In this document: positions 1,850 to 63,960 of the stretch, piece by piece
How positions within the stretch are numbered: the first letter of the stretch is position 1
How the letters are laid out: the number at the start of each line of letters is the position of its first letter
Assembly (NCBI GenBank): GCA_030710605.1
Contig: CP092879.1
Location: forward strand, 44,459,151-44,523,150
DNA: 64,000 bases
Source of the DNA: Cordylochernes scorpioides
Lineage: Eukaryota > Arthropoda > Arachnida > Pseudoscorpiones > Chernetidae
Direction: 5' to 3'
Notes under the pieces: model-generated
The model's input: the letters and a program-made list of their open reading frames with translations, nothing else
What the model was told of the DNA's origin: nothing
Database searches by the model: none
Position numbers and translations under genes: made by a program

Positions 1850-2063
1850 TATATATATATATTAAAAAAAGAAATAAAAAAATAAAAGATAAAAAGATCA
1901 GGTGTTGAAATCAATATAAAAAATGGCATATCCTGACCAGGAGCACATGTGCTTTACAGAGGGCAGAGCGCCATCTGGTGGAACAGAAATCAACTAAACA
2001 TTGATTTAGCCTGTTCCCTGATATTTGGCCAACCCAATTTCTTGATAAATCAAGAAAAGCCAT

Positions 2064-2104
2064 CCACGAACGCGTTTCGCGCTTTTTGGCGCTCGTCAGC
2101 GTGG
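2064..2104 (-). ncRNA. hammerhead ribozyme, type I (copy a)
   Basis: Minus strand, in order: stem I CCACG; core CUGACGA; stem II GCGC-CAAAAA-GCGC; GAA; stem III ACGCGU; U17; stem I CGUGG. All conserved hammerhead core bases are present. Cleavage is expected 3' of the U17 that precedes CGUGG. Stem III has only two pairs around GC but is self-complementary, so two molecules or a tandem dimer could form an extended stem III, as described for newt satellite and Penelope-type ribozymes. Confidence 0.88.
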
Positions 2105-2415
2105 AGTAGGCTGAACCATTGAGACCAAAAAAAGATTTTTTGATCCCAATGGCTTCCTGAAAAACCAAGAAATGGGTATTTAAGGCCAAACTTGCGTAAA
2201 TACGCTTAGCACATTAAAAAAAGAAATAAAAAAATAAAAGATAAAAAGATCAGGTGTTGAAATCAATATAAAAAATGGCATATCCTGACCAGGAGCACAT
2301 GTGCTTTACAGAGGGCAGAGCGCCATCTGGTGGAACAGAAATCAACTAAACATTGATTTAGCCTGTTCCCTGATATTTGGCCAACCCAATTTCTTGATAA
2401 ATCAAGAAAAGCCAT

Positions 2416-2456
2416 CCACGAACGCGTTTCGCGCTTTTTGGCGCACGTCAGCGTGG
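2416..2456 (-). ncRNA. hammerhead ribozyme, core-mutated (copy b)
   Basis: Same as the copy 352 bp upstream except that the core reads CUGACGU: the conserved A9 is U. All stems are kept. On known hammerhead rules this copy should be strongly impaired. Confidence 0.8.
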
Positions 2457-2680
2457 AGTAGGCTGAACCATTGAGACCAAAAAAAGATTTTTTGATCCCA
2501 ATGGCTTCCTGAAAAACCAAGAAATGGGTATTTAAGGCCAAACTTGCGTAAATACGCTTAGCACATTAAAAAAAGAAATAAAAAAATAAAAGATAAAAAG
2601 ATCAGGTGTTGAAATCAATATTTTTCAGGAAGCCATTGGGATCAAAAAATCTTTTTTTGGTCTCAATGGTTCAGCCTACT

Positions 2681-2721
2681 CCACGCTGACGAGCGCCAAA
2701 AAGCGCGAAACGCGTTCGTGG
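2681..2721 (+). ncRNA. hammerhead ribozyme, type I (copy c)
   Basis: Plus strand, identical to copy a: CCACG, CUGACGA, GCGC hairpin, GAAACGCGUU, CGUGG. First copy after the inverted junction. Confidence 0.88.
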
Positions 2722-3032
2722 ATGGCTTTTCTTGATTTATCAAGAAATTGGGTTGGCCAAATATCAGGGAACAGGCTAAATCAATGTTTAGTTGATTTCT
2801 GTTCCACCAGATGGCGCTCTGCCCTCTGTAAAGCACATGTGCTCCTGGTCAGGATATGCCATTTTTTATATTGATTTCAACACCTGATCTTTTTATCTTT
2901 TATTTTTTTATTTCTTTTTTTAATGTGCTAAGCGTATTTACGCAAGTTTGGCCTTAAATACCCATTTCTTGGTTTTTCAGGAAGCCATTGGGATCAAAAA
3001 ATCTTTTTTTGGTCTCAATGGTTCAGCCTACT

Positions 3033-3073
3033 CCACGCTGACGAGCGCCAAAAAGCGCGAAACGCGTTCGTGG
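3033..3073 (+). ncRNA. hammerhead ribozyme, type I (copy d)
   Basis: Plus strand, all core bases and stems intact, one unit (352 bp) downstream of copy c. Confidence 0.88.
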
Positions 3074-3383
3074 ATGGCTTTTCTTGATTTATCAAGAAAT
3101 TGGGTTGGCCAAATATCAGGGAACAGGCTAAATCAATGTTTAGTTGATTTCTGTTCCACCAGATGGCGCTCTGCCCTCTGTAAAGCACATGTGCTCCTGG
3201 TCAGGATATGCCATTTTTTATATTGATTTCAACACCTGATCTTTTTATCTTTTATTTTTTATTTCTTTTTTTAATGTGCTAAGCGTATTTACGCAAGTTT
3301 GGCCTTAAATACCCATTTCTTGGTTTTTCAGGAAGCCATTGGGATCAAAAAATCTTTTTTTGGTCTCAATGGTTCAGCCTACT

Positions 3384-3424
3384 TCACGCTGACGAGCGCC
3401 AAAAAGCGCGAAACGCGTTCGTGG
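3384..3424 (+). ncRNA. hammerhead ribozyme, type I (copy e)
   Basis: Plus strand, core intact. Stem I starts UCACG instead of CCACG, so one G-C pair becomes G-U and the stem is still formed. Confidence 0.85.
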
Positions 3425-3577
3425 ATGGCTTTTCTTGATTTATCAAGAAATTGGGTTGGCCAAATATCAGGGAACAGGCTAAATCAATGTTTAGTTGATT
3501 TCTGTTCCACCAGATGGCGCTCTGCCCTCTGTAAAGCACATGTGCTCCTGGTCAGGATATGCCATTTTTTATATATA

Positions 3578-3943
3578 TATATATATTATATAATCTAAAA
3601 TACAAATATTTTATTTTTTAAAAACATATATTTTATTTTTTCATTCATTGACTGTTCTGCTTTTTTGACCATATATTCAAAAAAATATCACTTTAATTAT
3701 TGTTGTTGTAAATATGTAAAGTGAACCCTACCTTTTCTAATGAAAATCACGAATATAGAATTCATTTTCTAAATTTTATATTACTGTGATATAAATAATT
3801 TTATGTATATTTTTACTTCAAGAGATTCAAAATAAAAATCTGCTTGAAAGGTAAATAATTATCTTCACTTTTTCACGACTGCACCTCTTTTCAACAATCA
3901 AAAACACAAAAAAATTCTAATCTATAACATATATATATATATA
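3578..3943. other. AT-rich spacer, no feature seen
   Basis: AT-rich spacer ending in an (AT)n run next to the LTR. No reading frame or repeat that I can assign. Confidence 0.5.
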
Positions 3944-4260
3944 TGTCATAATATATGCTCTTACAGGAATAATAAAGTAAATCTGCAGTCGACCAGAGAG
4001 AGAGAGAGACGTAGTCGATAGAAGACAACTAACTTCGACCATTTTGACCACATTCCAAAGGGGGGGAAAAGGGACCCGCCCGTCAACACCTGGACAGTAG
4101 TCGGGGGGTGACCACACAAGCAGTCGTTCAGCGGATAACCTCTCGCTCGCTCTCTCTCGGCTGGCTGCCTGGATTATTGCTCTACCAACTCGTCTTGTGA
4201 TTATTTCTCACCTCACCACATTATTACCACTATATTCCCACATTGAAAGTCGACAGGATA
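3944..4260 (+). repeat. 5' LTR of truncated Ty3/gypsy element
   Basis: Starts TGTCATAATATATGC like the minus-strand LTRs at 1180-1849 and ends near GAAAGTCGACAGGAT, about 40 bases before the gag start at 4299. The last ~10 bases of the LTR seen in the other copies are replaced, so the exact end and primer-binding site are unclear. No matching 3' LTR is found downstream. Confidence 0.65.
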
Positions 4261-4298
4261 AGACCTGACCGGGAAACAAATCCCTCATATACCAGAGT

Positions 4299-5162
4299 AT
4301 GAAGAAAACAAGAAGCAATACCACGATGATCGAACAAACCCACAACCAAGTTCCACAAGAACCAACGACCGACTCTACTGTAGCCGCTTCCCTTCGAACT
4401 CTCACCCTCTGTCTCGACCAACTTTTAAACCGTGAGTCTGAAGAAGCAATCACCTACGACGGAGATGAACCTGCCGCACACTTCTTCTCACAACTTGAGT
4501 CTCAGCCGAACTTCCACAACTTAGAGCCAGCACGCCAAGCTCGAAAGGCTCTATCATCACTCAGAGGCGAAACTCGCAAAATTGCACAAGACTTAGCTCT
4601 ACTCAATAAGACTTATGAAGAGGTCAAGGAGTCACTCTGCGCCGTCTATCCCCGACGCCCTAGCTTCACTCTTCAAGAGTTCTATGAACTTAAATGCACA
4701 TCGATGGCCGAGATCGAGACCTACTACGAAAACAAGGTCCGAATAGGATTGGCAATCAACCTCCCTAAGAGTGCCATCGTGCAAGCACTATCCAACGGTG
4801 TGCCACGTAACTATGGCAACCTTTTAAAGATGGCACAACCCTCGGGACCAGAAGAATGGTTGTGCTTAGCCCAACAGCTGACCTACGAAGGGGATAACAC
4901 CAGCACTAAAGCTGCCCAACAACGATCACCGCGCCAGAGCAGAGCACCTTCCACCACCGTGGACAAGACCCCACCATATCCTTGCCGTTACTGTGGCGGA
5001 CAACACTGGCACGCACAGTGTCAGCAGCGAGGGCCCTACCAGCGGACTTTTCGGACCTTTACACCTGCGGTCCACAGAGTCGAGCAACCCCAAAGATCGA
5101 CTGGGCCTGCAGGTGTCTACGAGACCGCAGCAACGACGAGCTCGGGAGAGCTGTTTCCATAA
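4299..5162 (+). CDS. gag: Gag of truncated Ty3/gypsy element
   Basis: A 287-residue open frame directly behind the LTR. The first ~200 residues are a helical Gag-like region (motifs near SLRGETRKIAQDLALL and EFYELKCTSMAEIETYYENK). A single CCHC-type knuckle, CRYCGGQHWHAQC, lies at about residues 227-239; spacing is C-x2-C-x3-H-x4-C, one short of the usual form. The pol frame lies one frame over and overlaps the 3' end, as expected for a frameshift-expressed Pol. The start at 4299 is the first Met after the LTR; a second Met is 10 codons in. Intact Gag beside a broken Pol suggests a dead copy. Confidence 0.7.
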   Translation: MKKTRSNTTMIEQTHNQVPQEPTTDSTVAASLRTLTLCLDQLLNRESEEAITYDGDEPAAHFFSQLESQPNFHNLEPARQARKALSSLRGETRKIAQDLALLNKTYEEVKESLCAVYPRRPSFTLQEFYELKCTSMAEIETYYENKVRIGLAINLPKSAIVQALSNGVPRNYGNLLKMAQPSGPEEWLCLAQQLTYEGDNTSTKAAQQRSPRQSRAPSTTVDKTPPYPCRYCGGQHWHAQCQQRGPYQRTFRTFTPAVHRVEQPQRSTGPAGVYETAATTSSGELFP

Positions 5163-7052
5163 TTAGTTTAAACCAATTTGAATATATTAAAAATGTTAAT
5201 AGTTTCATTTGTTCCACCCCTATTAACAATGATGTTATTATCCGTACTATATCTAGTCATGCCAAACCAATCGGATTAGTTACCTTACCAATACAATTTA
5301 ATAATTTTAATTTTAATGAAACATCTTATATTTTAAATTCACCCCTTGAACTTGGTATCCTATCTATTCATGTTATGCAATTCTTAAGATTAACAATAGA
5401 TTTTCATAATCAATTGATACTTCAAAATAGTGTTCCAGTACCTAAACATTTGTACCATTTTGTATGTGACCTTCCCACTTGTAAGCACGGCTCGCGAATA
5501 ATAACTTCTAACCCTAAACGACCCATAATTCACTCGGTTAACTTAGGCGTTGACGATTTTCAACCTCCACGTGAGCCTTACTTACAAACAACCCTTAGTA
5601 ATATTTATCAACCTTCCCCTGAATGCCCCTCTCACCCTTACAACCTTAATAGACTTCCTACCAGCCCATGCGCCTCTAGAGAATTAATGATTAAAGAATT
5701 TATCGAACAACGCCCAGAACTGACTATCCCTTATCAGCAATTATTGTATGCTTTTAAAGATATTTTCCCTATCAATAAATCCAATGTATTACCACTCAAC
5801 ATAACCCCTGTAAAACTCAAAATTATTTCCGATAAGGTTATTTCCCTCCGACCATACCGAACTCCCTATGCCTACCAGAAGGAAATTCAGGACCAGATAT
5901 CTCAACTTCTAAAACATGACATAATCACCCCCTTCTCTAGCCCATATTCCTCTCCTGTGACACTCGTTCGCAAACGCAATAACACCATGCGTCTCTGCAT
6001 TGACTTCCGTCGCGTGAACGAACTAGTACCCTCGGATTTGCATCCTTTGCCATTGATAGAAACGGTACTGGATAACCTGTCGAAAGCCAGAGTATTTAGC
6101 ACCGTTGACATAAGCAATGCATACCATCAAATCCCCATCGCGGAGGAGAGTCAACCACTACTCTCTTTTGTGACTCAACAAGGGCAATATAATTTCAAAC
6201 GCTTACCCTTTGGGTTCAAATCAGCACCCCAAATTTTCGAACGTGTGATTACCCAGTTGATCCACAAACACCACCTCTCTTTCATAGCCCATTATTATGA
6301 CGACTTCGTTATTTTTTCTGACTCCTCAGAACAACACCTTACGCACCTTCGACTTTTCTTTAAATTCTGTTTAGAGGAAAATCTCCAACTTAACCTTAAA
6401 AAATGTAATTTTTATCAAAATGAAATAGATTTTCTCGGCTACCACATCACCGCAGGGACTTACACACCTAATATCAAAAATACCGAAATCATCAACGCTA
6501 TTAGAACTCCTATCAACATTAAAACCCTACAATCATTTTTAGGAGCCGTCAACGTATATCATAAATTCATCCCAGAATATGCTAGACTTCGCCACCCCTT
6601 AAATCAATTACTAAAAAAGAACGCCAAATGGCTTTGGAGCCCGAATTGTCAACAAGCCTTTGATAAATTGAAGCAACACCTCGCAACACAACCTGTGTTA
6701 CATCTATTTCAAGAAGCGCTCCCATGCCAGGTCTATTGCGACGCTTCCACGCAGGGCATATCGCAGGTGTACTCAAACAAGTACATCCTGACGGTACAAT
6801 CTACCCTGTACAATATTACAGTCGCGCGTTGCGTTCCTATGAGCGTAATTACACTATATCTGAACTGGAGTGCTTAGCCATTGTAGAGTGCGTTGACAAA
6901 TTCCGAGTGTACCTCCTAGGTACAAAGTTTGTCATCTACTCGGATCATCACGCCTTACAATGGCTAAAGACCATAAAAGACCCCACCGGACGCCTCTTTC
7001 GTTGGAGCCTTCGACTCTCAGCTTACGACTATGATGGAAAACACCATAAATA
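5139..7052 (+). pseudogene. pol: Ty3/gypsy Pol, frameshifted and 3'-truncated
   Basis: Protease remnant at about 5139-5430 (RAVSIISLN, LGILSIHVMQFL), reverse transcriptase at about 5740-6560 with CIDFRRVN, LPFGFKSAP and the catalytic YYDD near 6294, then RNase H. The protease active-site stretch reads D-E-L-G in place of the usual D-[ST]-G, so one codon seems inserted. RNase H is cut by a frameshift near 6765: it starts CDASTQGI in one frame and continues in another (YSRALRSYERNY, YSDHHALQWL). The frame stops at 7052 just before the expected end of RNase H. No integrase, 3' LTR or polypurine tract follows. A dead fragment. Confidence 0.85.
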
Positions 7053-7079
7053 ATCTGTTATTAAAATATCTAAACAATT

Positions 7080-8171: not shown

Positions 8172-8285
8172 TTATAATTTCTTATATTTAAATATTATAT
8201 TATTCTATATATTTATACATATTGAATTATTGTTGATAATATTAAATATATATACACACACACATATTATAAACAACAAGTTCTA

Positions 8286-8530
8286 TCCTGACCGCTCACA
8301 AGAGCATTATTAGATGACAGAGCGCCATCTAGTGGAACAGAAATCAACTTAACGTTGATTTAACTCATTCCACGATATTTGGCCAACCCATTTTCTTAAT
8401 AAATCAAACCTTTTCTATTTTCCTTTCTATTTATATCTCTTTTTTTATAAATACGTATATTTGAAAAAAATTGAGGAACATTAGGAAAGAAACACTTACG
8501 TGTCAGGATGTGCCTTTTTTTGTTTTAAAA
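8286..8530 (-). repeat. retrozyme-family fragment lacking the ribozyme
   Basis: Shares TCCTGACC, AGAGCGCCATCTAGTGGAAC, ATATTTGGCCAACCCA and AATAAATCAA with the units at 1861-3577 but is interrupted just before the hammerhead. The far end (TGTCAGGATGTGCCTTTT) looks like the inverted start. A short derivative or deletion copy. Confidence 0.6.
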
Positions 8531-12823: not shown

Positions 12824-14640
12824 GACATGTCCTCTTCCGTGAACTTCGTTCTGGCCATCTGCCTCCTTGGTAAGTCCCTCTCCCCATCGAAATCTTCTCT
12901 CTTCACATTGTCCTGTCTCTATCCCTCTATTTGGTTAGTACATTTCTCCTATACACTTTCCATGTGCACTTCTTCCTGTACATTGTACTAAACGTCTCCT
13001 TCTATCCATTATCCATATCCTCCGTCTATCCATCCTTCAGATTTTCCGACATGTTCTGATTCCTGAACCTCATTCTGGTCCTTTCCTGCTTTGGTAATTC
13101 CATCTTCCCATAACATCATCCGACATCTTCTGTCTTCACATCGTACAAGCTCAATCCCTCTCAGATTAGTCCATTTCCCCAATATTATATTCGTTCTATT
13201 CCCTGTACATTGTACCTAACGTTTATTTTGTCAGGTCTACCTATTCTCCAGATTATGTCCTTCTCCATCTTCCCATAACATCATCCAACATCTTCTCTCT
13301 TCACATTGTACTGTCTCTATCCCTCTCTTTGGTTAGTACACTTCTACTATACACCTTCCATTTGTCATTCCTCCTGTACATTGCACTAAACGTCTCATTT
13401 TTTGGTAAATCTATCAATCCTTCAGATTTTCCGATATGTCCGCATTCCTGAGCTTTATTCTGTTCCTTTCCTATCTTGGTAAGTCCATCTTCTAAGCACA
13501 TCATTCGACATCTTCTCTTATCACATTGTCCTGTCTCTATCCCTCTTTGGTTAGTCCATTTCTCCTTTCCATTTCCATTTGTCCGTCTTCCTGTACATTG
13601 CACTGATCGTCTTTTTCTTTAGTAGAACCCATCCTTATGATTATCCGACATGTCCGCATTCCTGAACTTCATTTTGATCCTTTCCTGCCTTGGTAATTGC
13701 AACTTCTCATCATACCATTCGACATCTTCTCTCTTCACAATGTCCTGGCTCTAGCCCTCTCTGATTAGTCCCCAATACATTATTCCATTTGTTCTATACC
13801 CAGTACATTGTACCGAACGTCTCCTTTTCTGGAAAGTCTATCCATCCTTCTGATTATTCGACATGTTCTCATCCCTGAACTTTATTCTGATCCTTTCCTG
13901 TCTTGGTAAGTCCATTTCCTTATCACATCATTCGACATCTTCTCTCATCACATTGTCCTGGCTCTATCCCTCTCTGATTAGTCCATTTCCCCAATACATT
14001 TTCTATTTGTTCTCTTCCCTGTACATTGTACTGAAGGTCTCCTTATTTGGTAAGTTTATCCATCCTTCTGCTTATTCGACATGTTCTCATTCCTGAACTT
14101 TATTCTGATCCTTTCCTGCTTTGGTATTTCGATCTTCCCATCACATCCTTTGACATCTTCTCTATTCTCATTGTCCTGTCTCAATCCTTCTTTGGTTAGT
14201 CTATTTCTGCTTTACACTTTCTATTTGTCAGTCTTCCTATACATTGTACCGAATGTCTCCTTTGTTAAGTCTACTCATCTTTTGATTATCCGATATGTCC
14301 TCATTCCTGAACTTCATTCTGATCCTTTCCTGCCTTAATAAGTCCATCTTTCCATCACATGATCCGACATCTACTTTCTTCCCATCGTACTGGCTCAATC
14401 CCTCTCTGATTAGTACATTTTCCTAATACATTATTCCATTTGTTATCTTCCAAGTACATTGTACTGAAGGTCTCCTTCTTTGGTAGGTCTACTCATCCTT
14501 TGATTATCCGATATTTCCTCTTCCATATACTTCATTCTGAACCTCTCTTGCCCTGGTAAGTCCATCTCGCTTACGCATTATCCGATCTGCCCTCATCCCT
14601 GTACTTTACTCCAGACGTCTTTCTTCTTAGTAAGTTCTAA
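12824..14640. repeat. higher-order minisatellite of signal-exon-like units
   Basis: A ~72-bp monomer arranged in a ~216-bp trimer, about nine cycles. The A monomer begins GACATG and reads ATG, hydrophobic codons (MSSFLNFILILSCL), then TTGGTAAGTCC. A-type starts lie at 12824, 13048, 13433, 13647, 13860, 14078, 14292, 14510 and 14584. B monomers (GACATCTTCTCTCTTCAC) and C monomers (CCTGTACATTGTACTGAAGG) are diverged versions that often keep GGTTAGTCC or GGTAAGTC. On the minus strand the A monomer also reads open (DLPRQERIRMKFRNEDMSD), so a former coding repeat on that strand is the competing reading. Stops and indels show decay. Confidence 0.75.
12827..12869 (+). CDS. candidate exon 1 (signal peptide) of plus-strand DUF1397 paralog
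   Basis: ATG, 14 mostly hydrophobic residues (MSSSVNFVLAICLL), then G followed by GTAAGT. Length (43 nt) and phase (ends after the first base of a Gly codon) match exon 1 of the complete minus-strand gene exactly (MISAACILLLLAAL plus G). It would splice in frame to exon 2 at 20706, which starts with the two bases needed. It heads a tandem array of similar units, and any other copy could be the used exon. The inference rests on size, phase and position, not on sequence identity alone. Confidence 0.4.
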
Positions 14641-17260: not shown

Positions 17261-17340
17261 GGAAGATTTTTTTGTTTATTATTTATATCCATTTTACAGA
17301 AGATTTTACTCTTTTCAGAATTAAAAACCTTTTCAAATAA

Positions 17341-18095
17341 AATTATTTTTATATCTCTCTTTACAGGGCCTTGAAAAATTCTAACTCTAATATCTAGAAG
17401 GTTAGGTGGAATTTCAAAAGTGTTTTCTATATTGGTAGAAATGAGCTTATAGTGAAACTAACTAGTATAGACTCACAATCATTATGGCAAGAACACTGCT
17501 ATTATGGAGAAAATGGAAGAAGAGAATTATTTTTATATTTCTCTTTACCGGGCCTTGAAAAATTCCAACAAACTAAAAGGTTAGGTAGACTGTCAAAATT
17601 ATTTTCTACATTTGTAGAAATGAGATTATAGTGAAACTAATATCAATATAGACTTACAATCATTATGGCCAGAAAAACTGCTATTATGAAGAAAATGGAA
17701 GAAGATAATTATATACAATTATTTTTATATTTCTCTTTACCGGGTCTTTAAAAATTCCAACATACTTGAAGGTTAGGTAGACTGTCAAATTTGTGGTCTA
17801 CATATGTAGAAATGAACTTATAGTAAAACTAAAATCAATATAGACTTACAATCATTATGGCCAGAAAGTGCTATTATGAATAAAATAGAAGAAGAGAATT
17901 ATATATAATTATTTTTTATATTTATCTTTATCGGGTATTGAAAAATTCCAACAAACTATAAGGTAAGGTAGACTGTCGAAATTGTTTTCTGCATTTGTAG
18001 AAATGAGCTTATAGTGAAATTAACTAGTATAGACTCATAATCATTATGGCCAGAAAACTGCTATTATGGAGAAAATAGAAGAAGATAATTATAGA
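17341..18095. repeat. tandem repeat, ~187 bp x 4
   Basis: Four diverged copies with AATTATTTTTATAT, CCGGGCCTTGAAAAATTCC, AAGGTTAGGTAGACTGTCAA, GAAATGAGCTTATAGTG and ACAATCATTATGGCCAGAA in the same order. Noncoding. Confidence 0.75.
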
Positions 18096-37753: not shown

Positions 37754-38500
37754 ACTAGACGAATGGCCCGGGCAACGCCCGGGTTTTACCCGAGTGCGAA
37801 TATATTTTAAAAACGTTGTCTTGGGTGGTCGCTATAGACGGGGTGGTCTGTATAGACAGGTGTATGTATCACACAGCCGATAACAGGGTTGTCTAGAGTG
37901 GCCGCTATAGACAGGGTGGTCTGTGTAGACAGGTGTATGTATCACACAGCCGATAACAGGGTTGTCTAGAGTGGCCGCTATAGACAGGGTGGTCTGTATA
38001 GACAGGTGTATGTATCACACAGCCGATAACAGGGTTGTCTAGAGTGGCCGCTATAGACAGGGTGGTCTGTATAGACAGGTGTATGTATCACACAGCCGAT
38101 AACAGGGATGTCTAGAGTGGCCGCTATAGACAGGGTGGTCTGTATAGACAGGTGTATGTAACACACTGCTGATAACAGGGTTGCCTAAGGTGACCGCTAT
38201 AGACAGGGTGGTCTGTATAGACAGGTGAATAACACACTAATGATAACAGGGTTGCCTAAGGTGACCGCTATAGACAGGGTGGTCTGTATAGACAGGTGGA
38301 TGTATCACACAGCTGATAACAGGGTTGTCTAGAGTGGCCGCTATAGACAGGTGTATGTATCACACAGCTGATAACAGGGTTGTCTAGAGGGGGGTAGGGA
38401 GGTCACGTGTTCGCCGGCGGCAGCCAATGGGCGCGCATTCTATCCGTGAACGGTGACGGTGAGCTTCATAATAAGGCAATTATATAAGTAGATCAAATGA
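37754..38500 (-). mobile_element. Helitron-like nonautonomous element
   Basis: On the minus strand the end reads AACCCGGGCGTTGCCCGGGCC, a CCCGGGC-GTT-GCCCGGG hairpin, then about 10 bases and CTAG followed by T. A hairpin shortly before CTRR at an A/T target is the Helitron 3' signature. The body is a 73-bp minisatellite (37820-38395), as known for DINE/Helentron-type elements. The other boundary is not clear; 38500 is a guess near a GC-rich block and TTATATAAGTAGAT. A hairpin relative is at 54302-54330. Confidence 0.5.
37820..38395. repeat. minisatellite, 73 bp x ~8
   Basis: Unit contains GTATGTATCACACAGCCG, ATAACAGGGTTGTCTAGAG, TGGCCGCTATAGACAGGG and TGGTCTGTATAGACAGG. Copies at 37868, 37941, 38014 and 38087 are exactly 73 bases apart; later copies have small deletions. 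CTATAGACAGG is also the terminal motif of the MITEs at 8555 and 19211. Confidence 0.9.
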
Positions 38501-40265: not shown

Positions 40266-41041
40266 CATTCTGTGTCTTGTTATTGCATGAGTTTATTTTC
40301 CATATTGGACCTTACCTTGTCTTTTGTTTAATTATCTTGTATTTTTCAAAGCATCAGCATCAAATACTGACATTAACATTAATTATATCAAATATTTGTC
40401 TTTTCAAAATTTACAGTACGAATCATTATGGCGTCAACAATTCTTTTGATCTCTATATTTCGACACACACAATATTGGAGTGCAATAAAACTTCTCCTGC
40501 TCATAAAACAATTAATCTTTTTTTATGATCAAGGAATTTTCATCTTCATGTAAAAGTGTTCATATACTTTCGCGGTTTGAAGAGGTAATAACAAGAATGT
40601 ATTTGATAGAATTATGTCCACAGTTTTTAAAAATAAAATTATAATGTCAGTTAGAAGTATGTTTTAATAGAAAAATGAAAAACCAAATAAAAATTAATAA
40701 TCACACCAACCTCACCATATTTTTACAAATAATTAAATTTCGTTTCAACAAAGCTTGTCATAGTAGAAGTGTCTTGATGAAAACAGGCTCGCAGCTTTTC
40801 GACCTATCGAAAAATCAAAGAATTTTTAGATCTGTATGATTATTTCATTAATTTTTACCTTACAATTAATAAAGAACACACATCAAAGAAATTCTTAAAT
40901 ACTTTGATTTTAGGAGAAATGTATCTTCTGATCGTGCAACTAAAAGTTGATTATTGTTTGCACCATATAAAAAAATACCCATTCTCTTTTTTCAGAAACA
41001 ACAAAGACCAGCTTTTTTTTGTCATTGAGGTACAGCTTGCA
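40266..41041. other. no supported feature
   Basis: AT-rich. A 105-codon frame at 40211-40528 has no recognisable motif. Confidence 0.4.
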
Positions 41042-41081
41042 TCACGCTAATGACGGTCAACAGCCTGAAACGCGTACGTGG
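41042..41081 (+). ncRNA. degenerate hammerhead ribozyme
   Basis: UCACG, CUAAUGA, CGGU-CAACA-GCCU, GAAACGCGUA, CGUGG. Stem II keeps pairing with different bases from the main family, stem I keeps a G-U pair and H17 is A, but core G5 is A. Probably inactive. Confidence 0.6.
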
Positions 41082-41275
41082 TTAGCTTATCTTGATTAAT
41101 CAAGAAATGGTATTTGGCCAATTCTGGAATAATTAAAAATCAATGATTAGTTGATATCTATTCTGAAATATGGCGCAAGCCATCAGAAACTTTTATTTGC
41201 AAATTCAGGAGATGCCTTCACATTCTAATTTATCAAACTGATCCCAGTACAATTACACTTTTGTATCATTTATTT
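41042..41275 (+). repeat. diverged retrozyme-family copy
   Basis: Same order as in the 352-bp units: ribozyme remnant, TCTTGATTAATCAAGAAAT, ATTTGGCCAA, ATCAATG-ATTAGTTGAT, then a GGCGCAAGCCATC hairpin and GGAGATGCCTTC. A shorter relative is at 30790-30865. Confidence 0.65.
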
Positions 41276-41472
41276 TCATAATTTATTATCAGTGTATTAA
41301 ATAAACGAAAAATCAGTCAAAATAAAAAAACAAAAAACTAAGTCTGCTTTTAAGGAGCGCTAATATTCTACCTTTTTTTAGGAAAAATATAAGGAAATAG
41401 CTAAATTCTTATTTTGCATATCTATCTATTTAGCCTAGCAATATTTTAATAAATTAACAAGCTCCACATTTA

Positions 41473-47605: not shown

Positions 47606-48642
47606 TGAGAAAACTTTTCTAAATAGTAAAATGCTTTAGTCAAATCCATCCTCACCAGTAAGTGCATGTAGCCGAAAATATGGTCAATCACGTTATAAAC
47701 ACGAAATCAAATTGATTTCTACATGTCTAGACATGGGGTGCAGCTTATACTAGAATCAGTAACAAACAATTAAATCATATAATTATATTATGAATTCCCC
47801 ACGGCTTCATACGCATGCATACAAAGTCGTCTAACATATACTTTACACAAACACATACACACGTACACACAAACGATATAAGTCAAAATACATATCTGAT
47901 TATCTGTAGTAATTTTTTCGATTTCTTTTTCGCAAATATATTTTATTTATATATTTCTGAAATTTTCAACTAAAAATTTCCTTCAGTTGTTAATGCAATT
48001 TGAAATACAGGCAGAGGATGTCTATATTTTAAAAATAACGATTTATCTTGCCTTACGTGAGTGAACTAAACTGTTATTTCCCCTTAATCAAAAATTGAAT
48101 TTTTGAAACTAAATAGGTCAAACATATGCTTTTAATATGGAATAATTCCAAAGGAAGCTAAAAGTTTCTTTTTGACCTTTCGAAAATAACTTCCTTTGAA
48201 TTCCAATTATTAAAAACGATGAAGTAAAGATAATGCTATCTGCATATTTTTTGACGTAAATTTATGATTATGGCAGTAGTATGACTTGAAGGTAAGTTTG
48301 TTTTGAAATTAAGAAGAGTACTTAATAGTGAAAAATTAATTGATATATATATCAATCTCAAAATATGTTTCTCATTTTGATAATTAATGCCAAATGGGAA
48401 AGCAGGAGACTGGTATACAAGGTGTGATTCAACCAGGATAGGACATCAAGCTATACTTCTCATTCTACGGTAGAAATTTTAGAGCAGAGACATAATTGAC
48501 ACAGGAATTTCTGGCATACAATTTTCACTTATACTTGTTAAGTCTCCGGATCAGACATTCCTGGATTTCTTTTTTTTTTTTTAATTACAGCTTGTTGAAA
48601 CAGAATCAAAGAAATACAAGATATTTATATAGATTTATTTAA
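47606..48642. other. no supported feature
   Basis: AT-rich with short simple repeats (for example CACA runs at 47850). No gene. Confidence 0.4.
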
Positions 48643-48789
48643 AATAAAGAAGGCATCTCCTGACCACAAGCACATGTGCTTTTTAGATGGCAGAGCGCCA
48701 TCTAGTGGAGTAAAATAAACTAAACGTTTATTTAGCTTACTCCGAGATATTTGGCCATCCCAATTTCTTGATAAATCAAGAAAAGCCAT

Positions 48790-48829
48790 CCACGAACGCG
48801 TTTCGCGCTGTTGGCGCTCGTCAGCGTGG
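48790..48829 (-). ncRNA. hammerhead ribozyme, type I (copy f)
   Basis: CCACG, CUGACGA, GCGC-CAACA-GCGC, GAAACGCGUU, CGUGG: all core bases and stems present, one base shorter in loop II than the 2-3.4 kb copies. Confidence 0.88.
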
Positions 48830-49049
48830 AGAAGGCTGTAACCACCTGTAAGCACATGTGCTTGTGGTCAGGAGATGCCTTCTTTATTTTAAATATCAAC
48901 ACCTGACCCACTTATCTTTTATTTTTTTCTATTGTTTTTTCATGTGTTAAGCGTCTTTAGGGAATTTTGCCTTAAATACCCATTTCTTGATTTCTCGGGA
49001 AGCCATTGGGTCCAAAAAATCTTTTTGGTCGCAATGGTTACAGCCTTCT

Positions 49050-49089
49050 CCACGCTGACGAGCGCCAACAGCGCGAAACGCGTTCGTGG
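49050..49089 (+). ncRNA. hammerhead ribozyme, type I (copy g)
   Basis: Identical to copy f, opposite strand. Conserved although flanking sequence differs from the 2-3.4 kb units. Confidence 0.88.
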
Positions 49090-49344
49090 ATGGCTTTTCT
49101 TGATTTATCAAGAAATTGGGTTGGCCAAATATCTCGGAGTAAGCTAAATAAACGTTTAGTTTATTTTTACTCCATTAGATGGCGCTCTGCCATCTAAAAA
49201 GCACATGTGCTTGTGGTCAGGAGATGCCTTCTTTATTTTAAATATCAACACCTGACCCACTTATCTTTTATTTTTTTTTCTATTGTTTTTTCATAGATTT
49301 ATTGTGAATTAAATTATTGTAAATAGCAGAGAATTAGTAATTAC

Positions 49345-49537
49345 TAAGGAAGATGTACCTTTTAGCATGTATATCATGATTCAGACAATAACTATGAAAG
49401 ATATTACAGTGACCTTTATTGTAAACGCACGAGTTTTTCAAGTATGAATAAAATTGCCTCTCTGTCTCCTTCAAAAAAAAAATATATATAGGACCGGCGA
49501 CATTAGTTTCCACTTCCTGTAGTTATGTCCATGCGTG
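49345..49537 (-). mobile_element. TIR element of the CACTCATGGACAAAAC family, reverse
   Basis: GTACCTTTTAGCATGTATAT, GATTCAGACAATAACT, TGACCTTTATTG; then a T-poor edge with GTTATGTCCATGCGTGTA. Confidence 0.6.
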
Positions 49538-49596
49538 TAAAATTTCCTACATTTAGATGAGATAAGAAATGAATGGGTATTCAAATCGAAGGTAAA

Positions 49597-49801
49597 TTGA
49601 GTAAAAATACCAGGCCTCCAGGGAAAATTATCTTTTCACAAACCGTTTCAATCTCCAGCTTTCGGGCACACACGCCCTTCTACAAAAAAAAAAAAAAAAA
49701 AACATGTTTTCTCCTGTAGAAGGGCGTTCGAGCCCGAAAGCTAGAGATTGTAACGGTTTTAGAAAATACACTTTTCCCTGGAGGCCTGGTATTTTTACTC
49801 A
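49597..49801. repeat. long palindrome of two hammerhead-like units
   Basis: Arms of ~90 bases from TGAGTAAAAATACCAGGCC to its inverse, around an A run at 49684-49702. Each arm holds (TG)TAGA, AGGGCG...GCCC, GAAAGCT. In the right arm TCTC before the core can pair with GAGA after it as stem I. Confidence 0.7.
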
Positions 49802-50753
49802 ATATTGATACAAGGGATTATTTTATTGAATCGAAGATAAATTTTAAAAATCCTTTATCACTTTGAATAACACGACTTCCATATACAGTAGGTTAATACT
49901 GCCTCTATAACCAAAGATCCTATCTGAACTCAAGAATTTATTCTTTAACAACATATTGTCAACTTATTCTTTCCATTCCTACTGAGTGTCTATCTGCATT
50001 GTTTTTTTCTCTCAACGTCATGTAACTGGTTATGTAAGTTGTTTCTCGACTCTTGTTACCCAATTGACAAAAATAAAAACTGAAGCAGTTCGGAAAACAG
50101 ATTGAGCTCTACTGGAACTTATCGAATTTACATAAAAAGAAAGACAATAGAGGACTCCGCCATTATTTCAGTTTTTGCAATCCTTTCCTCTATTATGGCA
50201 GTAGGGAAAGTTTTTAGGGGTTATTTCCTCCCGTTTATAACTCATTATTCTCTGCTATTATTGATTTCATACTGTGACGGCTTGGCTGATATCCAGTAAC
50301 ACAGGTATGTCTTCCTGGCTGAAACCAAGATAAGAAACTTCGTCACAACCTTGAAGGTATGACATTGAAAATAAGGTAACATTGTGGGAGAATGATATTC
50401 ATATACCAATATAGAAAAACTATATTTCTAAACATTCAGTAAAACAATGTATTTCGACTTTTACCCTAGTACAGATGGTATTTGACAAATACAACCGATA
50501 TTTATTTATTTCAACACACAAAACGCGATATCCCGGCTAATGATAATTGCGTCGATTTACATTTTTGAACAGAAACAGTTAAAACAAATTATACTAGAAA
50601 AACAATTAATTGGAGAAAAAAATTATATCAGGAACCTGAACCTTTCATGTTAGAAAGGTAATCATGAATATATTCACAAAAATAGTTAAATCTGTTACAA
50701 TTCTCTTTGGTATTTACAAATTGATATAGATCTACAACATTATTCACTGTCTG
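49802..50753. other. no supported feature
   Basis: AT-rich; the 65-codon frame at 50102-50299 is not convincing. Confidence 0.4.
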
Positions 50754-53620: not shown

Positions 53621-53691
53621 TTGCTTTTGGTTCAGTGGTAGAATGCTCGCCTGCCACGCCGTCGCCCCGGGTTCGATTCCCGGCCGATGCA
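53621..53691 (+). pseudogene. tRNA-Gly(GCC)-like copy 1, disrupted
   Basis: From GGTTCAGTGGTAGAATGC to GGTTCGATTCCCGGCCGATG this matches a tRNA-Gly with GCC anticodon and ends in a T run. The 5' acceptor strand is replaced by unrelated bases and the anticodon stem is mispaired (GCCGT instead of GCGGG). Not a functional tRNA gene. Confidence 0.7.
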
Positions 53692-54401: not shown

Positions 54402-54472
54402 TCATGTGTGGTTCAGTGGTAGAATGCTCGCCTGCCACGCGGGCGGCCCGGGTTCGATTCCCGGCCGATGCA
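54402..54472 (+). pseudogene. tRNA-Gly(GCC)-like copy 2, 5' acceptor lost
   Basis: D arm, anticodon arm (CTCGC-CTGCCAC-GCGGG), T arm and 3' acceptor (CCGATGCA) of tRNA-Gly(GCC) are intact and a T run follows, but the 5' acceptor reads TCATGTG instead of the complementary GCATCGG. Shares upstream TTGTCACCGTTTGCTTTT and ~25 downstream bases with copy 1, so the pair comes from a larger duplication or a SINE-like unit. Confidence 0.7.
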
Positions 54473-54757: not shown

Positions 54758-54834
54758 ACTGTTGAAGAAGCTGGATCGATACCCATTCAGAAAAAAAGCG
54801 TAAAATTGATTCGGTTGAGCAAGAAGAAACAACC

Positions 54835-56013
54835 ATGAACATCAAAAAAGAAGCAACAAATCAGGTAGGTTCATTTTTTATACAACATTTACCTAGAAAC
54901 CCCACAATGTTCTCTGGTGAGGGTTCTGAAGATCCCCATAACTGGTTGAAAAAGTACGAACGTGTGGCGAAGCATAACCAATGGGATGAAACACTTTGTC
55001 TTGCCAACGTTTACTTTTATTTGACCGGCACTGCTCTCAAATGGTTTGAGAACAATGAGGAGAGCATCCTGACATGGAAGGAGTTCATGTCCCAGTTAAA
55101 ATCAGTTTTCGGAAAAAACGAAAACTTGAGGTTACGAGCAGAGAAACCCTTAAAAACTCGCGCACAATTAAAAGGTGAAAGCACCGAATTTCATATTCAA
55201 GAAGTCCTGCGCCTTTGCAAAGAGGTAGACCCTCATATGAATGAGGAAGATAAAATATCCCATTTGATGAAAGGGATAGCAGAGGAGCTCTACCAGGCAC
55301 TTTTCCCAAGAGATGCACATACCACCGAACAATTCGTCACCGAGTGTCGCCGCATTGAAGCGCTACATTGTAAGCGAGTAACCCCAACCAGGTACGAGCG
55401 ACTACCAAATGTGGCGTCTCTCATTGATCATGATGACAGGGCAGATCTGTCATCTATGATTAGGCAAATGGTTCGCGAGGAGGTACAGCGAGCATTAGCC
55501 TCTCCTCGAGAAGAACCAGAAATTTCTGCAATTGAACATATGGTGCAGCAAGAAATTGAAAAAACCATTGCGCCAATTTCTAGAAGTTTCCCTCAAAATA
55601 GAGCGCCAAGGCCATTACCAAGCCCTAGGTACGAGTTCCAACCCAGAAATTTCCAACCTAGACCGCAGCAGCCGAAACAAGTAAACGGAAGACGCGATAC
55701 CAACGAATGGCGAACCACGGAAGGTAAGCCAATCTGTTTCCACTGCGGACGCCCTGGCCACGTCGTGCGCTACTGCCGTGACAGGAGGAGAGAATATGAA
55801 GGAGAACAAACTTGGAATTACAAACAGAGAGATAGGCTAGAGCCTAGAACATTCTATAATTCTCGGAGCAGCCAAGAGCCCAACGACGACCTGCCAAGAG
55901 AAAATAGACGCCGCTACCGAAGCCCCTCTCCTTACACTGGCCGAAAAGGACAATATTCGTCTCCTGATAGAAGACCCAGCCAGTCGCCTCGCCGTTCCCG
56001 TCAGGAAAACTAG
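54835..56013 (+). CDS. gag: Gag of Ty3/gypsy element 1
   Basis: 392 residues. A Ty3-type Gag domain (PHNWLKKYERVAKHNQWDET, TGTALKWFENNEE, LKSVFGK, LMKGIAEELYQALF) occupies residues ~25-190. A CCHC knuckle CFHCGRPGHVVRYC (C-x2-C-x4-H-x4-C) lies near residues 302-315, and the tail is rich in Arg and Ser. Met at 54835 follows the LTR and a 77-base leader. Gag assembles the particle and binds the RNA. The frame is intact, although pol downstream is not. Confidence 0.85.
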   Translation: MNIKKEATNQVGSFFIQHLPRNPTMFSGEGSEDPHNWLKKYERVAKHNQWDETLCLANVYFYLTGTALKWFENNEESILTWKEFMSQLKSVFGKNENLRLRAEKPLKTRAQLKGESTEFHIQEVLRLCKEVDPHMNEEDKISHLMKGIAEELYQALFPRDAHTTEQFVTECRRIEALHCKRVTPTRYERLPNVASLIDHDDRADLSSMIRQMVREEVQRALASPREEPEISAIEHMVQQEIEKTIAPISRSFPQNRAPRPLPSPRYEFQPRNFQPRPQQPKQVNGRRDTNEWRTTEGKPICFHCGRPGHVVRYCRDRRREYEGEQTWNYKQRDRLEPRTFYNSRSSQEPNDDLPRENRRRYRSPSPYTGRKGQYSSPDRRPSQSPRRSRQEN

Positions 56014-56069
56014 AAGATGCGTCCTATTTTGGAGGTAAGGCCGCAAAATTTATAAATTCCTACTTAGAA

Positions 56070-59000
56070 TTAAAAATTAGAATTAAAAGAAAATTACATA
56101 GACATTAAAATAGAAGGAAAAATAACGCGTGCCCTCGTCGACTCAGGAGCCTCATATTCTGTCATTTCTGAGAGGTTCAGACTCAAACTAAGAAAAATAA
56201 TGTTTGCCGAAACTGACGTCACATTACGAGTAGCCAACGGTAAAATTGTAAGACCAAAAGGACGCTGCACACTGAAACTGGACTTGAATGGACTACAGGA
56301 AAGCTTTGAATTTGTCGTTATGGAAGACTGTAGTCACGAAGTTATTCTTGGTTGGGACTTTTTGAAGTTATCTAGGGCGATAATTGATTCAGCTGACGAC
56401 ACACTCTTCTTAGAAAAATGTCTTTTTGAGGATACCCCTAAGAACAGCTCACCTCTCTACTCAGAATTTGAATATAGAATCGAACCCGCCTCTATTCAGT
56501 TAATAGAAGTAGCAAGTCGTGACATTCCTAATGACGCAATTGTGGTGGCAGAATGTCGAAAAGAGCTATTGCTGGAAAGAGAACTAACGGCTCCCTCCTC
56601 TGTCATTTCACTTACCAATAACCGAGGTAAATTTTGGGTGGTGAATTGGAGTCCATATCCGAAACTAATCCCACAGGGGTTGCATGTAGCCGATAGTGCT
56701 GTCATCGAAGATAGTCAATTATGTACTCTAGCTGATTGTAACCAAGTTGAAACAGAGGCGGAACATTCTGAAGACCCAAAAATCTCGGAATTTTTTATAG
56801 ATGATTCACTTGATAAATCTCAAAAAGAAAAATTAAGAAATTTGTTGAAAAACTATACGGATATTTTCGAATTTAGTAAAAGAAAACAATTCAAAGACGT
56901 CAATGTTAAACACAGAATTAACACTGGAGACCACCTACCGACCAAACAAAGACCTTACCGAGTTGCACCAAGAGAACGCCAAATTATTCAGGATGAGAGA
57001 GGTAAACAAGATGGAAAAACTTGACATCATTCAGCCCTCTGAAAGTCCGTGGGCCTCACCTGTCGTATTGATAAGAAAAAATGATGGAAGCTGGATATTC
57101 TGCGTCGATTACCGCCGCCTTAAGAAAATAACAAAAAAGGATGTCTACCTTCTCCCAAGGATCGACGACACTTTAGACTGCTTACGGGGAGCTAGATTTT
57201 ATTCTTCCATGGACCTCCAATCAGGGTACTGGCAAATCGACGTAGAAGAATCGGACCGTGAGAAGACAGCATTTATAACTCCAGATGGACTGTACAAGTT
57301 CAAAGTAATGCCATTTGGGTTATGTAATGCTTCAGCTACCTTCGAACGAATGATAGATAATCTTCTGAAGGATCTTAAGTGGGCCATTTGCTTGTGTTAC
57401 CTCGACGACATAATCGTTTTTTCAGATGGCTTTGAAGAACATCTAAGACGCCTTCAACTTGTATTAAATTGCCTTAAGAAAGCCGGATTATGTCTCAATT
57501 CCAAGAAATGCAAGTTTGGTGCAAAAACTATCACGGTTCTTGGACATGAGGTGAGTGAAAATGGAATTCGTCCCGACCAAGAAAAGATTCGAGCAGTCCG
57601 CGACTTCGCTACGCCAAGGTCATTGAAGGAAGTTAGAAGTTTTCTTGGCCTTTCATCCTACTACCGCCGCTTCATACCCAATTATGCCCACGTAGCCCAA
57701 CCCTTGAATGACCTTTTGAAGAAAGACTCAGCATTTAATTGGAACCAGGAAGAGCAAAATGCATTTGAAGCTCTCAAGTCAGCGTTAATTTCCGAACCCG
57801 CTCTTGGACATTTTGATTACTCATCCCCAACCGAAATACACACTGACGCAAGCAACTACGGAATAGGAGCAGTATTAGTGCAGATACAAAAGGGAAAGGA
57901 AAGAGCCATTGCTTATGCATCCAGAACTTCAAATAGGGCAGAAAAAAATTATTCAACCACAGAAAGGGAATGCCTTGCCATCATTTGGGCTATCAATAAA
58001 TTCCGACCATATGTCTTTGGACAGCCGTTCACTATTGTTACAGACCACCACTCTTTGTGCTGGCTGACCAACCTCAAAGACCCATGTGGGAGGTTAGCAA
58101 GATGGGCACTTCGGCTGCAAGAGTTTGACGTCACTGTCGTGTATAAGAGCGGAAGGAAACATCAGGACGCAGACTGCTTATCAAGAAGTCCATTAGAATA
58201 CAGTGAAGATATGGAGGAAGATATTCCAAGCATAGTGACTTTGCAGAACTTTAGCGAAGAGCAGATGAATGATCAAGCTCTTAGAAAAATCGCTGACCAA
58301 TTACAAAGTACTCCTAATAATTCCTTTGTAAAAATCGATAACACGCTCTACAGAAAAAATTATGATCCAATGGGGAAACCATGGCTTTTGGTGGTTCCAC
58401 GCCATTTAAGGAAGGAATTACTGAAAAATTTCCATGATTCACCCACGGCTGGTCACCTCGGATTTACTAAAACCTATGACAGAATAAGAAAAAAGTATTA
58501 CTGGCCCGGAATGTATAGAACGGTTAGAAGGTATGTGGCACACTGTTCAGATTGTCAGAGGCGTAAACATCAGCCCCAACTCCCCTCAGGGCACTTACAG
58601 CCAATACCTGTTCCTGAAGTTGCCTTTGAAAAGGTAGGAATGGATCTCCTGGGGAGATTTCCAACATCAGAAGGTGGCAACCGTTGGATTATTGTATGTA
58701 CGGACTACCTAACGAAATATGCGATAACTAAAGCTCTACCCACAAGTGAATCCATGGAAGTTGCCAAATTCTTCATTGAAGATGTCATCTTAAAGCACGG
58801 CGCGCCGAGGGAATTAATCACGGATAGAGGAAGGAACTTCACATCTTCAATGATAAGTGATCTGAACAACCAGTGCAGAATAACCCATCGGAAGACGACC
58901 GCCTATCACCCCCAGACAAACGGACTCACGGAGAGGTTGAATAAGACCATAGCAGACATGCTGTCCATGTATGTAGATGTCAACCAGAAAGATTGGGACA

Positions 59001-59283
59001 GGATTCTTCCATTCGTTACATTTGCATACAACACAGCAAAACAAGAGTCTACTGGGTTCACCCCATTTTTCCTTGTACACGGGCGTGAAGCCGAGACTCC
59101 ACTTGACGTGTTATTCCCCAAGTTATTGCCAGAAGACGACGATTTCATCCAAACTCTAGGGTCAAGAGCCGAAGAAGCACGAAAACTGGCACGTATCCAC
59201 TCCATGAGATCTCAAGATAGCAATAAACATCTCTATGACGCCCATCACAGAAATATAATTTATCAGCCTGAAGATCTTGTATG
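56070..59283 (+). pseudogene. pol: Pol of Ty3/gypsy element 1, frameshifted and split
   Basis: Protease with ALVDSGASYSVIS near 56130 and VILGWDFLK; reverse transcriptase with FCVDYRRL, MPFGLCNASATF and catalytic YLDD near 57400; RNase H with HTDASNYGIGAV, STTERECLAI, TDHHSL; integrase with an HHCC finger (HDSPTAGH ... CSDC), GMDLLG, TDRGRNF and GLTERLNKTI (DDE). Two breaks: stop codons between Gag and protease, and an apparent 4-base insertion near 56995-57000 that moves protease/RT-start and the rest into different frames. The integrase C-terminus is cut at 59283 by element 2. Only a few residues seem to continue after 63704. Confidence 0.88.
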
Positions 59284-59467
59284 TGTTGTATATAGTTATA
59301 ATCTGTGCTACAAAAGATCTGGCAACCAGTATGTAAACAACGCCGCATAATAAATATATAATTGTTCTAGCACGGCGGTATATTAATTGTCTATATACAT
59401 AAAGGCTGTAACTATATTAAATATATATAAAGCTAAAGGTAAATGAACCCGTATAAAAGATACAACA
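59284..59467 (+). repeat. 5' LTR of element 2
   Basis: 184 bp, TGTTGTATATAG to AGATACAACA. By eye identical to the 3' copy. Contains AATAAA near 59349 and TATATAAAG near 59426. Confidence 0.95.
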
Positions 59468-59485: not shown

Positions 59486-59537
59486 GTTGAAAGATAAGTA
59501 AAATTCCAAATATCAATTAAGCCTAACACGTTGAAAA

Positions 59538-63740: not shown

Positions 63741-63960
63741 AAGGATAAGTTTCTTTATTTGAAAAATAAATTCGAGCTTTCGGGCGCAAGCTGCCCTTCT
63801 ACAGGAATAATGGATACAATTTCAAGTAGTCATGTATGTACAGATATATATTCTTTATTTGAAAAATAAATTCGAGCTTTCGGGCGCAAGCTGCCCTTCT
63901 ACAGGAATAATGGATACAATTTCAAGTAGTCATGTATGTACAGATATATATATTTTCTTT
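63741..63960 (-). repeat. tandem ~104-bp duplication with hammerhead-like hairpins
   Basis: Two direct copies. On the minus strand each has ATTCCTGTAGA, an AGGGC...GCCC hairpin, then GAAAGCTCGAAT; ATTC before the core can pair with GAAT after it (stem I). Confidence 0.7.

Follow-up and report, generated by a model that had tools for sequence, protein, structure and literature searches.

Metazoan retrozymes have been described as dispersed elements of low GC content that lack a long open frame and carry a type I hammerhead ribozyme in every one of their tandem units, which measure a few hundred base pairs; Penelope-like elements (PLEs) were put forward as a strong candidate for their partner (PMC7229834). 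The PLEs of rotifers form head-to-head repeats, one of which may bear an optional tail of 31 bp, and are bounded by duplications of 8-10 bp (PMC3846280). A purified PLE protein from a lizard cuts and extends both DNA strands, initiates reverse transcription at a pair of neighbouring internal positions of the RNA, one on either side of the tail, and prefers AT-rich targets (PMC11167929). Here we describe element A, which occupies positions 1861-3574 of a 64,000-nt stretch of the genome of the pseudoscorpion Cordylochernes scorpioides (the window). On the basis of its sequence and that of its relatives, it is proposed, with a probability of about 0.8, that element A represents a single insertion of a non-autonomous retrozyme of metazoan type, carried by PLE machinery.

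Element A shares with the described metazoan retrozymes the ribozyme in every tandem unit, the low GC content, the lack of a long frame and the dispersed copies, and with the amphibian repeats among them a weak single-pair stem III and a palindromic tetraloop; it differs in that its arrays are inverted head-to-head and possess two fixed 3' ends (PMC7229834). The words 'inverted', 'head-to-head' and 'opposite' do not occur in the available main text of that paper, and the available portions of PMC11722881 and PMC7761336 contain no statement of head-to-head retrozyme arrays. Within the open-licence literature we found no paper on a hammerhead ribozyme in pseudoscorpions and none linking retrozymes to head-to-head arrays. 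PLEs with pseudo-long terminal repeats (PMC3846280, PMC11167929) resemble element A in their head-to-head ends, a tail at one end, duplications of ~8-11 bp or slightly longer, and hammerheads. In contrast to PLEs, the retrozyme encodes neither a reverse transcriptase nor an endonuclease, its ribozyme has the full type I form whereas that of PLEs is minimal, and its tail measures 53 nt against 31-33 in PLEs.

Structure of element A and its hammerhead ribozymes

The sequence and repeat searches resolve element A into two head-to-head arms of one 352-bp unit. The left arm (1861-2621, minus strand) is 761 nt long, or 2.16 units, and the right arm (2621-3574, plus strand) is 954 nt long, or 2.71 units; both 5' ends are central. 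With base 2621 of the window taken as u1, the right arm starts at u1 and has its outer 3' end at u251 (site 1), and the left arm spans u304, its outer 3' end (site 2), to u248. The initial annotation had reported five unit copies of 352 bp in two opposing arms and a single base of microhomology at the junction; repeat searches and blastn confirm the former, and the latter agrees with the 1-nt overlap of the arms at 2621. The repeat period is 352 in the left arm and 351 in the right arm, the unit copies are 99.6-100% identical (blastn of the unit), and relative to a circular unit the two arms together carry 2 substitutions and one 1-nt deletion. Flank comparison places (TA)n target tracts at 1848-1862 on the left and 3567-3587 on the right.

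By sequence criteria element A is a metazoan non-LTR retrozyme (LTR, long terminal repeat). This assignment is based on the unit size (352 bp, and ~349 bp in a second subfamily described below, within the metazoan retrozyme range of about 150-450 bp), a GC content of 39.2%, which is under the retrozyme ceiling of ~45-50%, the absence of any frame of at least 110 amino acids overlapping 1861-3577, the target duplications, the many dispersed copies and a ribozyme model match with a low E value below threshold. The earlier description of the locus as a retrozyme-like element with type I hammerheads is thus supported by its size, composition, lack of a long frame, duplications and dispersal. The unit has no frame of at least 110 amino acids that could encode the reverse transcriptase and endonuclease (GIY-YIG) of a PLE; inspection by eye, with no search aimed at them, showed neither an LTR nor a primer binding site or polypurine tract.

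Each unit copy carries a type I hammerhead. Four of the five keep every core base, as first annotated: 2049-2115 on the minus strand (predicted cut 2069/2068), and 2670-2736 (predicted cut 2716/2717, that is u96/u97), 3022-3088 (3068/3069) and 3373-3439 (3419/3420) on the plus strand, the last with a stem I pair changed from C-G to U-G. The fifth, 2401-2467 on the minus strand, has the core CUGACGU, in which A9 is replaced by U, and is probably inactive. In a check with Rfam hammerhead models, as the initial annotation had suggested, Hammerhead_HH9 (RF02275) matches all five copies over the whole window with E values of 4.8e-6 to 5.3e-5 (38.0 bits for the first three named, 36.1 for 3373-3439 and 34.8 for 2401-2467), yet every score is under the Rfam gathering score of 52. 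HH9 is an isolated amniote motif. It is the best-scoring Rfam family for all five copies, with which it shares the loop II sequence CAAAAA and a similar outer helix; unlike it, the copies of element A sit in tandem mobile units and score below gathering.

A pattern of core plus CGTGG has 6 matches in the window, 4 in element A and 2 in a second element (element B, below), against 0 in 100 dinucleotide shuffles, and no match to the ribozyme pattern was found in viral contigs. As read from the sequence, stem III is reduced to a lone A-U pair that closes a loop of palindromic sequence, CGCG, and co-folding of two copies yields a paired hammerhead with a predicted energy of -43.1 kcal/mol, compared with 2 x -18.4 for the separate copies. 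Folded as a circle, the unit has a predicted energy of -112.3 against a mean of -75.2 for 100 dinucleotide shuffles (z -7.0).

Arms, ends and junctions across the genome

Relatives of element A were collected with a 652-base query from it, by which the best 40 of 593 first-look candidates were scored (107 matches). We fetched 38 loci and mapped their arms with a five-fold unit. One of them (L022, G000:C17:44357024-44358724), ~104 kb upstream of element A, has flanks 98.7-99.3% alike with those of A and may be a segmental duplication or an assembly duplication of it; it was dropped, leaving 38 A-type loci counting A, although it remains in the tables of flank words, core counts and arm variants. 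Ends and junctions were taken from the blastn arm mapping and their edges are approximate. Extra fragments were set aside as separate insertions in L011, L013, L015, L016, L017, L021, L023, L025, L028, L030, L034, L036, L044 and L045; that of L021, a 72% copy, lies in plus orientation to the left of the minus arm. The left ends of L012 and L015 fall outside the fetched stretch, so these two are counted among the two-arm loci and junctions and not among the ends.

Two arms are present in 31 of the 38 A-type loci, and in all 31 the minus arm lies on the left and the plus arm on the right. Head-to-head inversion is therefore the usual structure of this retrozyme family, and the view of the initial annotation that the inverted junction is unusual, since rolling-type copying ought to yield only direct repeats, is not supported. 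Such arms are what priming on both target strands predicts. The outer 3' ends fall repeatedly at two unit positions 53 nt apart, u251 and u304. Of the 29 two-arm elements in which both ends were determined, 25 use the two sites once each (within 7 nt). When both ends lie at a site, B included, 26 of 27 elements have one of each, against an expectation of one half (one-sided P 2e-7). Very long single arms, of roughly six or more units, occur in L011 (1666-3837, a left arm of 2,172 nt) and in L037 (1048-4101), an older locus (92-95% identity) whose arm runs to the edge of the fetched sequence. Flanks are alike on both sides only in the pair of A and L022; on one side, those of L023 and L036 are 90% alike.

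A second subfamily, ~85% identical to A by blastn, is represented in the window by element B (48636-49294), a head-to-head ribozyme pair which the initial annotation had missed. Its left arm (48636-48844, minus strand) has its 3' end at site 1 and an intact-core hammerhead at 48775-48840, and its right arm (48846-49294, plus strand), of ~1.3 units, has its 3' end at site 2 and an intact-core hammerhead at 49039-49104; both ribozymes match HH9 with 28.0 bits and E 0.0079 in the scan of the whole window. The left end was put at u250 by hand from the alignment, blastn having over-extended it to u299. An 11-bp target duplication, ATAGATTTATT, stands at 48629-48639, where it overlaps the arm by a few microhomology bases, and again at 49293-49303 (both read on the plus strand), and so abuts both outer ends of the element. 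A B-type search, in which the best 40 of 1,961 first-look candidates were scored (92 matches), gave 8 mapped loci including B itself (L057). All but one (L061, single-armed) have two arms, all seven of these are head-to-head, and 7 of 7 have one end of each kind; since the query ended at site 2, the site-2 end was pre-selected and the other was not. In both subfamilies (25 of 29 and 7 of 7) the tail is thus on one arm only, a PLE-like signature.

The insertion targets of A- and B-type loci are AT-rich. A word of at least 10 bp is common to both flanks in 27 of the 31 tabulated loci (L022 and B included), and duplications of at least 10 bp that contain a C or G occur in 10 of 30 elements, compared with 27 of 870 pairs of mismatched flanks, examples being ATACCTATTATAT, AATAAGTACAAAT and AGATAGATATAT. 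The target duplications exceed 4 bp, in line with retrozymes, and are ambiguous at (TA)n targets. A search within the window gave no clean empty paralogue of the insertion site of A or B.

The junctions between arms are scattered over the whole unit: among 32 elements, 20 overlap by 1-11 nt and L027 by 37, 2 abut, and 9 contain 1-15 filler bases. Head-to-head junctions with microhomology could also arise by twin priming of the type known from long interspersed nuclear elements, in which the first strand on a linear retrozyme transcript would be primed at the RNA 3' end and the second at a random internal site, so that the 5' part is inverted, and the overlap at 21 of the 32 junctions would suit it. 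Twin priming would leave one fixed and one random outer end, whereas both are fixed here; no poly(A) tail was seen at the element ends inspected (31 rows), the arms traverse several units, and the inversion is found in 31 of 31 two-arm loci, so that this explanation has little chance of being right. We give the same low standing to termination by RNA polymerase III at T-runs, by which u251 and u304 would be alternative transcript 3' ends available to any reverse transcriptase. Both positions do lie directly after T-runs, yet arms of up to ~6 units, such as the left arm of L011, would have been transcribed through many such runs, and termination by itself would not lead one to expect that an element uses each site once.

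For head-to-head rotifer PLE copies with junction palindromes, self-priming with an antisense RNA as template has been proposed, whereby one complementary DNA (cDNA) folds back to make the second arm (PMC3846280). It should start both arms at nearly equal unit positions, and a distance of at most 30 nt between the two 5' ends is found in 5 of 32 elements, where 5.5 are expected by chance; this lack of proximity speaks against a fold-back, which would also leave the different outer sites of the two arms without explanation, and we consider it very improbable. Head-to-head palindromes can also form at the DNA level, by template switching, fold-back synthesis or recombination acting on a direct tandem array, and the flanks of element A do carry old inverted repeats. 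Such events would have had to produce the same outer ends at many loci with unrelated flanks and differing junctions, and the target duplications enclose the whole inverted structure, as the 11-bp duplication around B illustrates; the idea is hardly credible. False palindromes from assembly or library preparation, which some libraries do generate as palindromic reads and which the possible assembly duplication of A and L022 might recall, are just as hard to credit with 31 loci that have distinct junction positions, unequal arm lengths, unequal ends and different flanks.

Several observations bear on the template. In element A and L009-L020 (n=13), 19 variants relative to the family consensus are common to both arms and 2 are arm-specific, which indicates that both arms come from one RNA or one identical source. 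Every arm of A and B crosses the predicted ribozyme cut site, so the copied RNA should have been circular or ligated, or else uncut. Six of 64 junction ends lie at most 2 nt from the predicted cut at u97, where 0.9 would be expected (P 3e-4), and none of the 352 centres has a higher count at this width; the six ends start with TTCGTGG (three), TTCGGGG, TCGTGG and TGGATGG, and one further end 2 nt from the cut is found in the B-type locus L058. Because junction ends cluster at the predicted cut, they suggest that some templates ended at a 5' end made by the hammerhead, which would be an indirect sign of cleavage in the animal.

Conservation of the ribozyme was assessed on the same loci. All core bases are kept in 161 of 171 copies (fetched loci, L022 and B included). 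When B, L022 and copies below 94% identity are excluded, 5 of 1,595 core cells are changed against 138 of 18,705 other cells (one-sided P 0.027), which is weak evidence of core conservation, and the unchanged columns, 7 of 11 in the core and 76 of 129 elsewhere, show no real difference. Among the divergent copies A and B and the older copies C and D (below), 11 of 51 consensus pairs are changed on both sides, a weak covariation signal taken without a shuffle control, and 12 of 51 are broken in at least one copy.

Penelope-like elements and the proposed route of insertion

A search of the genome for GIY-YIG endonuclease frames gave 17,015 first-look candidates, of which 150 were scored to yield 146 matches with stop-free frames of up to 828 amino acids; the table of matches contains eleven minus-then-plus pairs 1.4-4 kb apart. 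One of these PLE loci, L055, carries the signature of the retrozyme. This PLE consists of two head-to-head arms whose complementarity is 100% along 2,407 nt, with frames of 776 and 663 amino acids, and in both arms a minimal hammerhead lies past the frame. Its left arm terminates in ...CTATTTTTTATATAAAT, and its right arm has an extra 33-nt tail, ATGAATGCC.... The locus has an 11-bp duplication, with ATTCAGGTAAT abutting both ends; the same word also occurs once per unit of the satellite into which L055 inserted. With its head-to-head arms, single tail and duplication, L055 shares the anatomy of the rotifer PLEs (PMC3846280). In a second locus, L050, a tail is likewise present on one arm and absent from the other. 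The end of L055 that lacks the tail carries ATTTTTTATAT, as does site 1 (u251) of element A; B differs there, and this difference, together with the dissimilar tails of retrozyme and L055, means that no partner PLE is singled out.

The minimal PLE-type hammerheads of L048, L050, L051 and L055 have CTGACGA, with GAAACGTCGAG or GAAACGTTGAG in L048, L051 and L055 and GAAACCTTGAG in L050; all four have C at position 7, the same base as in the retrozyme ribozyme. The left flank of L055 contains a Twister-P1 match of 49.0 bits (gathering score 67.2). L056 is a large palindrome with a 465-amino-acid frame that has a GIY-YIG-like motif near its N-terminus, and may belong to a category of PLEs with permuted domains.

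We propose the following route for element A, for which we infer a PLE enzyme, a circular template and ribozyme activity. The repeat units would be transcribed into a multi-unit RNA, which the type I hammerheads, probably paired through the palindromic stem III, would cut into 352-nt monomers, some of them being ligated into circles. A PLE reverse transcriptase with GIY-YIG endonuclease would open an AT-rich target with a stagger of ~11-15 bp, and both broken strands would prime reverse transcription on one RNA, one at u251 and the other at u304. Each cDNA would pass the ligated or uncut ribozyme junction, covering more than 2 units in element A, and the two cDNA 5' ends would then be joined at varied unit positions, mostly through a few bases of microhomology or filler, to give the head-to-head array. 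A more specific version, which we hold tentatively and at somewhat less than even odds, is a rolling-circle, dual-primed integration in which a PLE dimer would load both broken strands onto two fixed sites of one ribozyme-made circle. Both reverse transcriptases would then follow the circle, in some loci several times over, and copying would stop when the circle is recut by its own hammerhead or when the cDNAs join.

Several observations weigh against an insertion by PLE machinery along this route. Concerning the geometry, 7 of the 38 A-type loci have a single arm (L021, L024, L026, L034, L037, L042 and L043, of which L024 and L037 reach an edge), L036 uses site 1 twice (251/251), L029, L040 and L046 have one end off-site, and the loci, as best-scoring candidates, form a non-random sample. 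The flank word is only 5-7 bp in L011, L027, L040 and L046; many duplications are (TA)n tracts, and a length of 8 bp is attained by 49% of mismatched flanks against the 27 of 31 observed. A shared word of 11 bp, as at element B, turns up in 84 of 4,000 pairs of random AT-rich sequence when it may lie anywhere in 50-bp zones, a figure that does not yet require it to abut the ends. Over all 31 rows (L022 included) arm-specific variants (89) outnumber shared ones (73). They are mostly in older loci (19 in L036, 17 in L041 and 10 each in L027, L029 and L040), as expected if mutations accumulated later, and L036 may represent two separate insertions; the case for a common template is drawn from the young loci. 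The peak at the cut depends on the width chosen, as a 3-nt window peaks at u98 (7 ends, against 6 at u97) and one of 5 nt gives equal top counts of 8 from u96 to u100, and a scan at the Rfam gathering threshold lists none of the hammerheads.

The link to PLEs meets objections of its own. Only L055 was read end to end, and L050 is without a duplication of at least 9 bp. The 53-nt tail of the retrozyme and the 33-nt tail of L055 have no evident common sequence, and comparison of the unit with ten PLE-type loci gave only short AT-rich matches among the matches listed. In the lizard system, ribozyme mutants of the PLE inserted normally, the start sites were alike on both strands, and no RNA ends were found at the cut (PMC11167929).

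Neighbouring features and biological meaning

The window contains two older copies of the unit. Copy C (8268-8407, minus strand) is truncated, running from u112 to ~u250, where it stops near site 1, and has no hammerhead; copy D (40973-41300, plus strand) is a degenerate single unit of ~70% identity whose core is mutated, as judged by eye, and which retains the palindromic ACGCGT. Rfam matches to MIR5048 and MIR393 at the junction of element A are made by the palindrome and were not taken as microRNAs. Around element A lie three repeats of ~340 bp that are ~70-74% alike, at 1189-1533 and 1535-1862 to the left (direct) and at 3924-4259 to the right (inverted); they adjoin a frameshifted gypsy gag-pol (4269-7053) and are probably nested LTR material. 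To the right of element B, 49343-49500 has at least 8 related stretches elsewhere in the window at ~70-77% identity and is an abundant repeat, and 49596-49803 folds back on itself, its two 97-nt arms being 87% complementary around a spacer of 14 nt; a stretch similar to its CTTTCGGGC...GCCCTTCTAC is present in a 100-bp tandem at 63751-63951.

At 54766-59350 and 59535-63506, two elements of the Ty3/gypsy type, both with long open frames, lie next to each other, and the gag of the first (54766-56013) shares 96% identity with a protein of Cordylochernes scorpioides. Transfer RNA matches at 53623-53691 (30.9 bits) and 54402-54472 (46.4 bits) are possibly tRNA-derived short interspersed nuclear elements. 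Tandem arrays are found at 13264-14568 (218 bp unit), 17340-18093 (192 bp) and 37815-38351 (73 bp).

The PLE-type ends of these insertions suggest whose enzymes this RNA parasite of animals borrows, and their presence in a genome rich in PLE endonuclease frames makes the question of the retrozyme partner directly testable. The many natural insertions can serve to map the priming sites, the form of the template and the use of the ribozyme. The rule of one end of each kind also constrains PLE insertion itself, including the origin of the optional tail, and rolling-circle dual priming, if true, would be a mode of insertion distinct from the ordinary target-primed copying of linear RNA.

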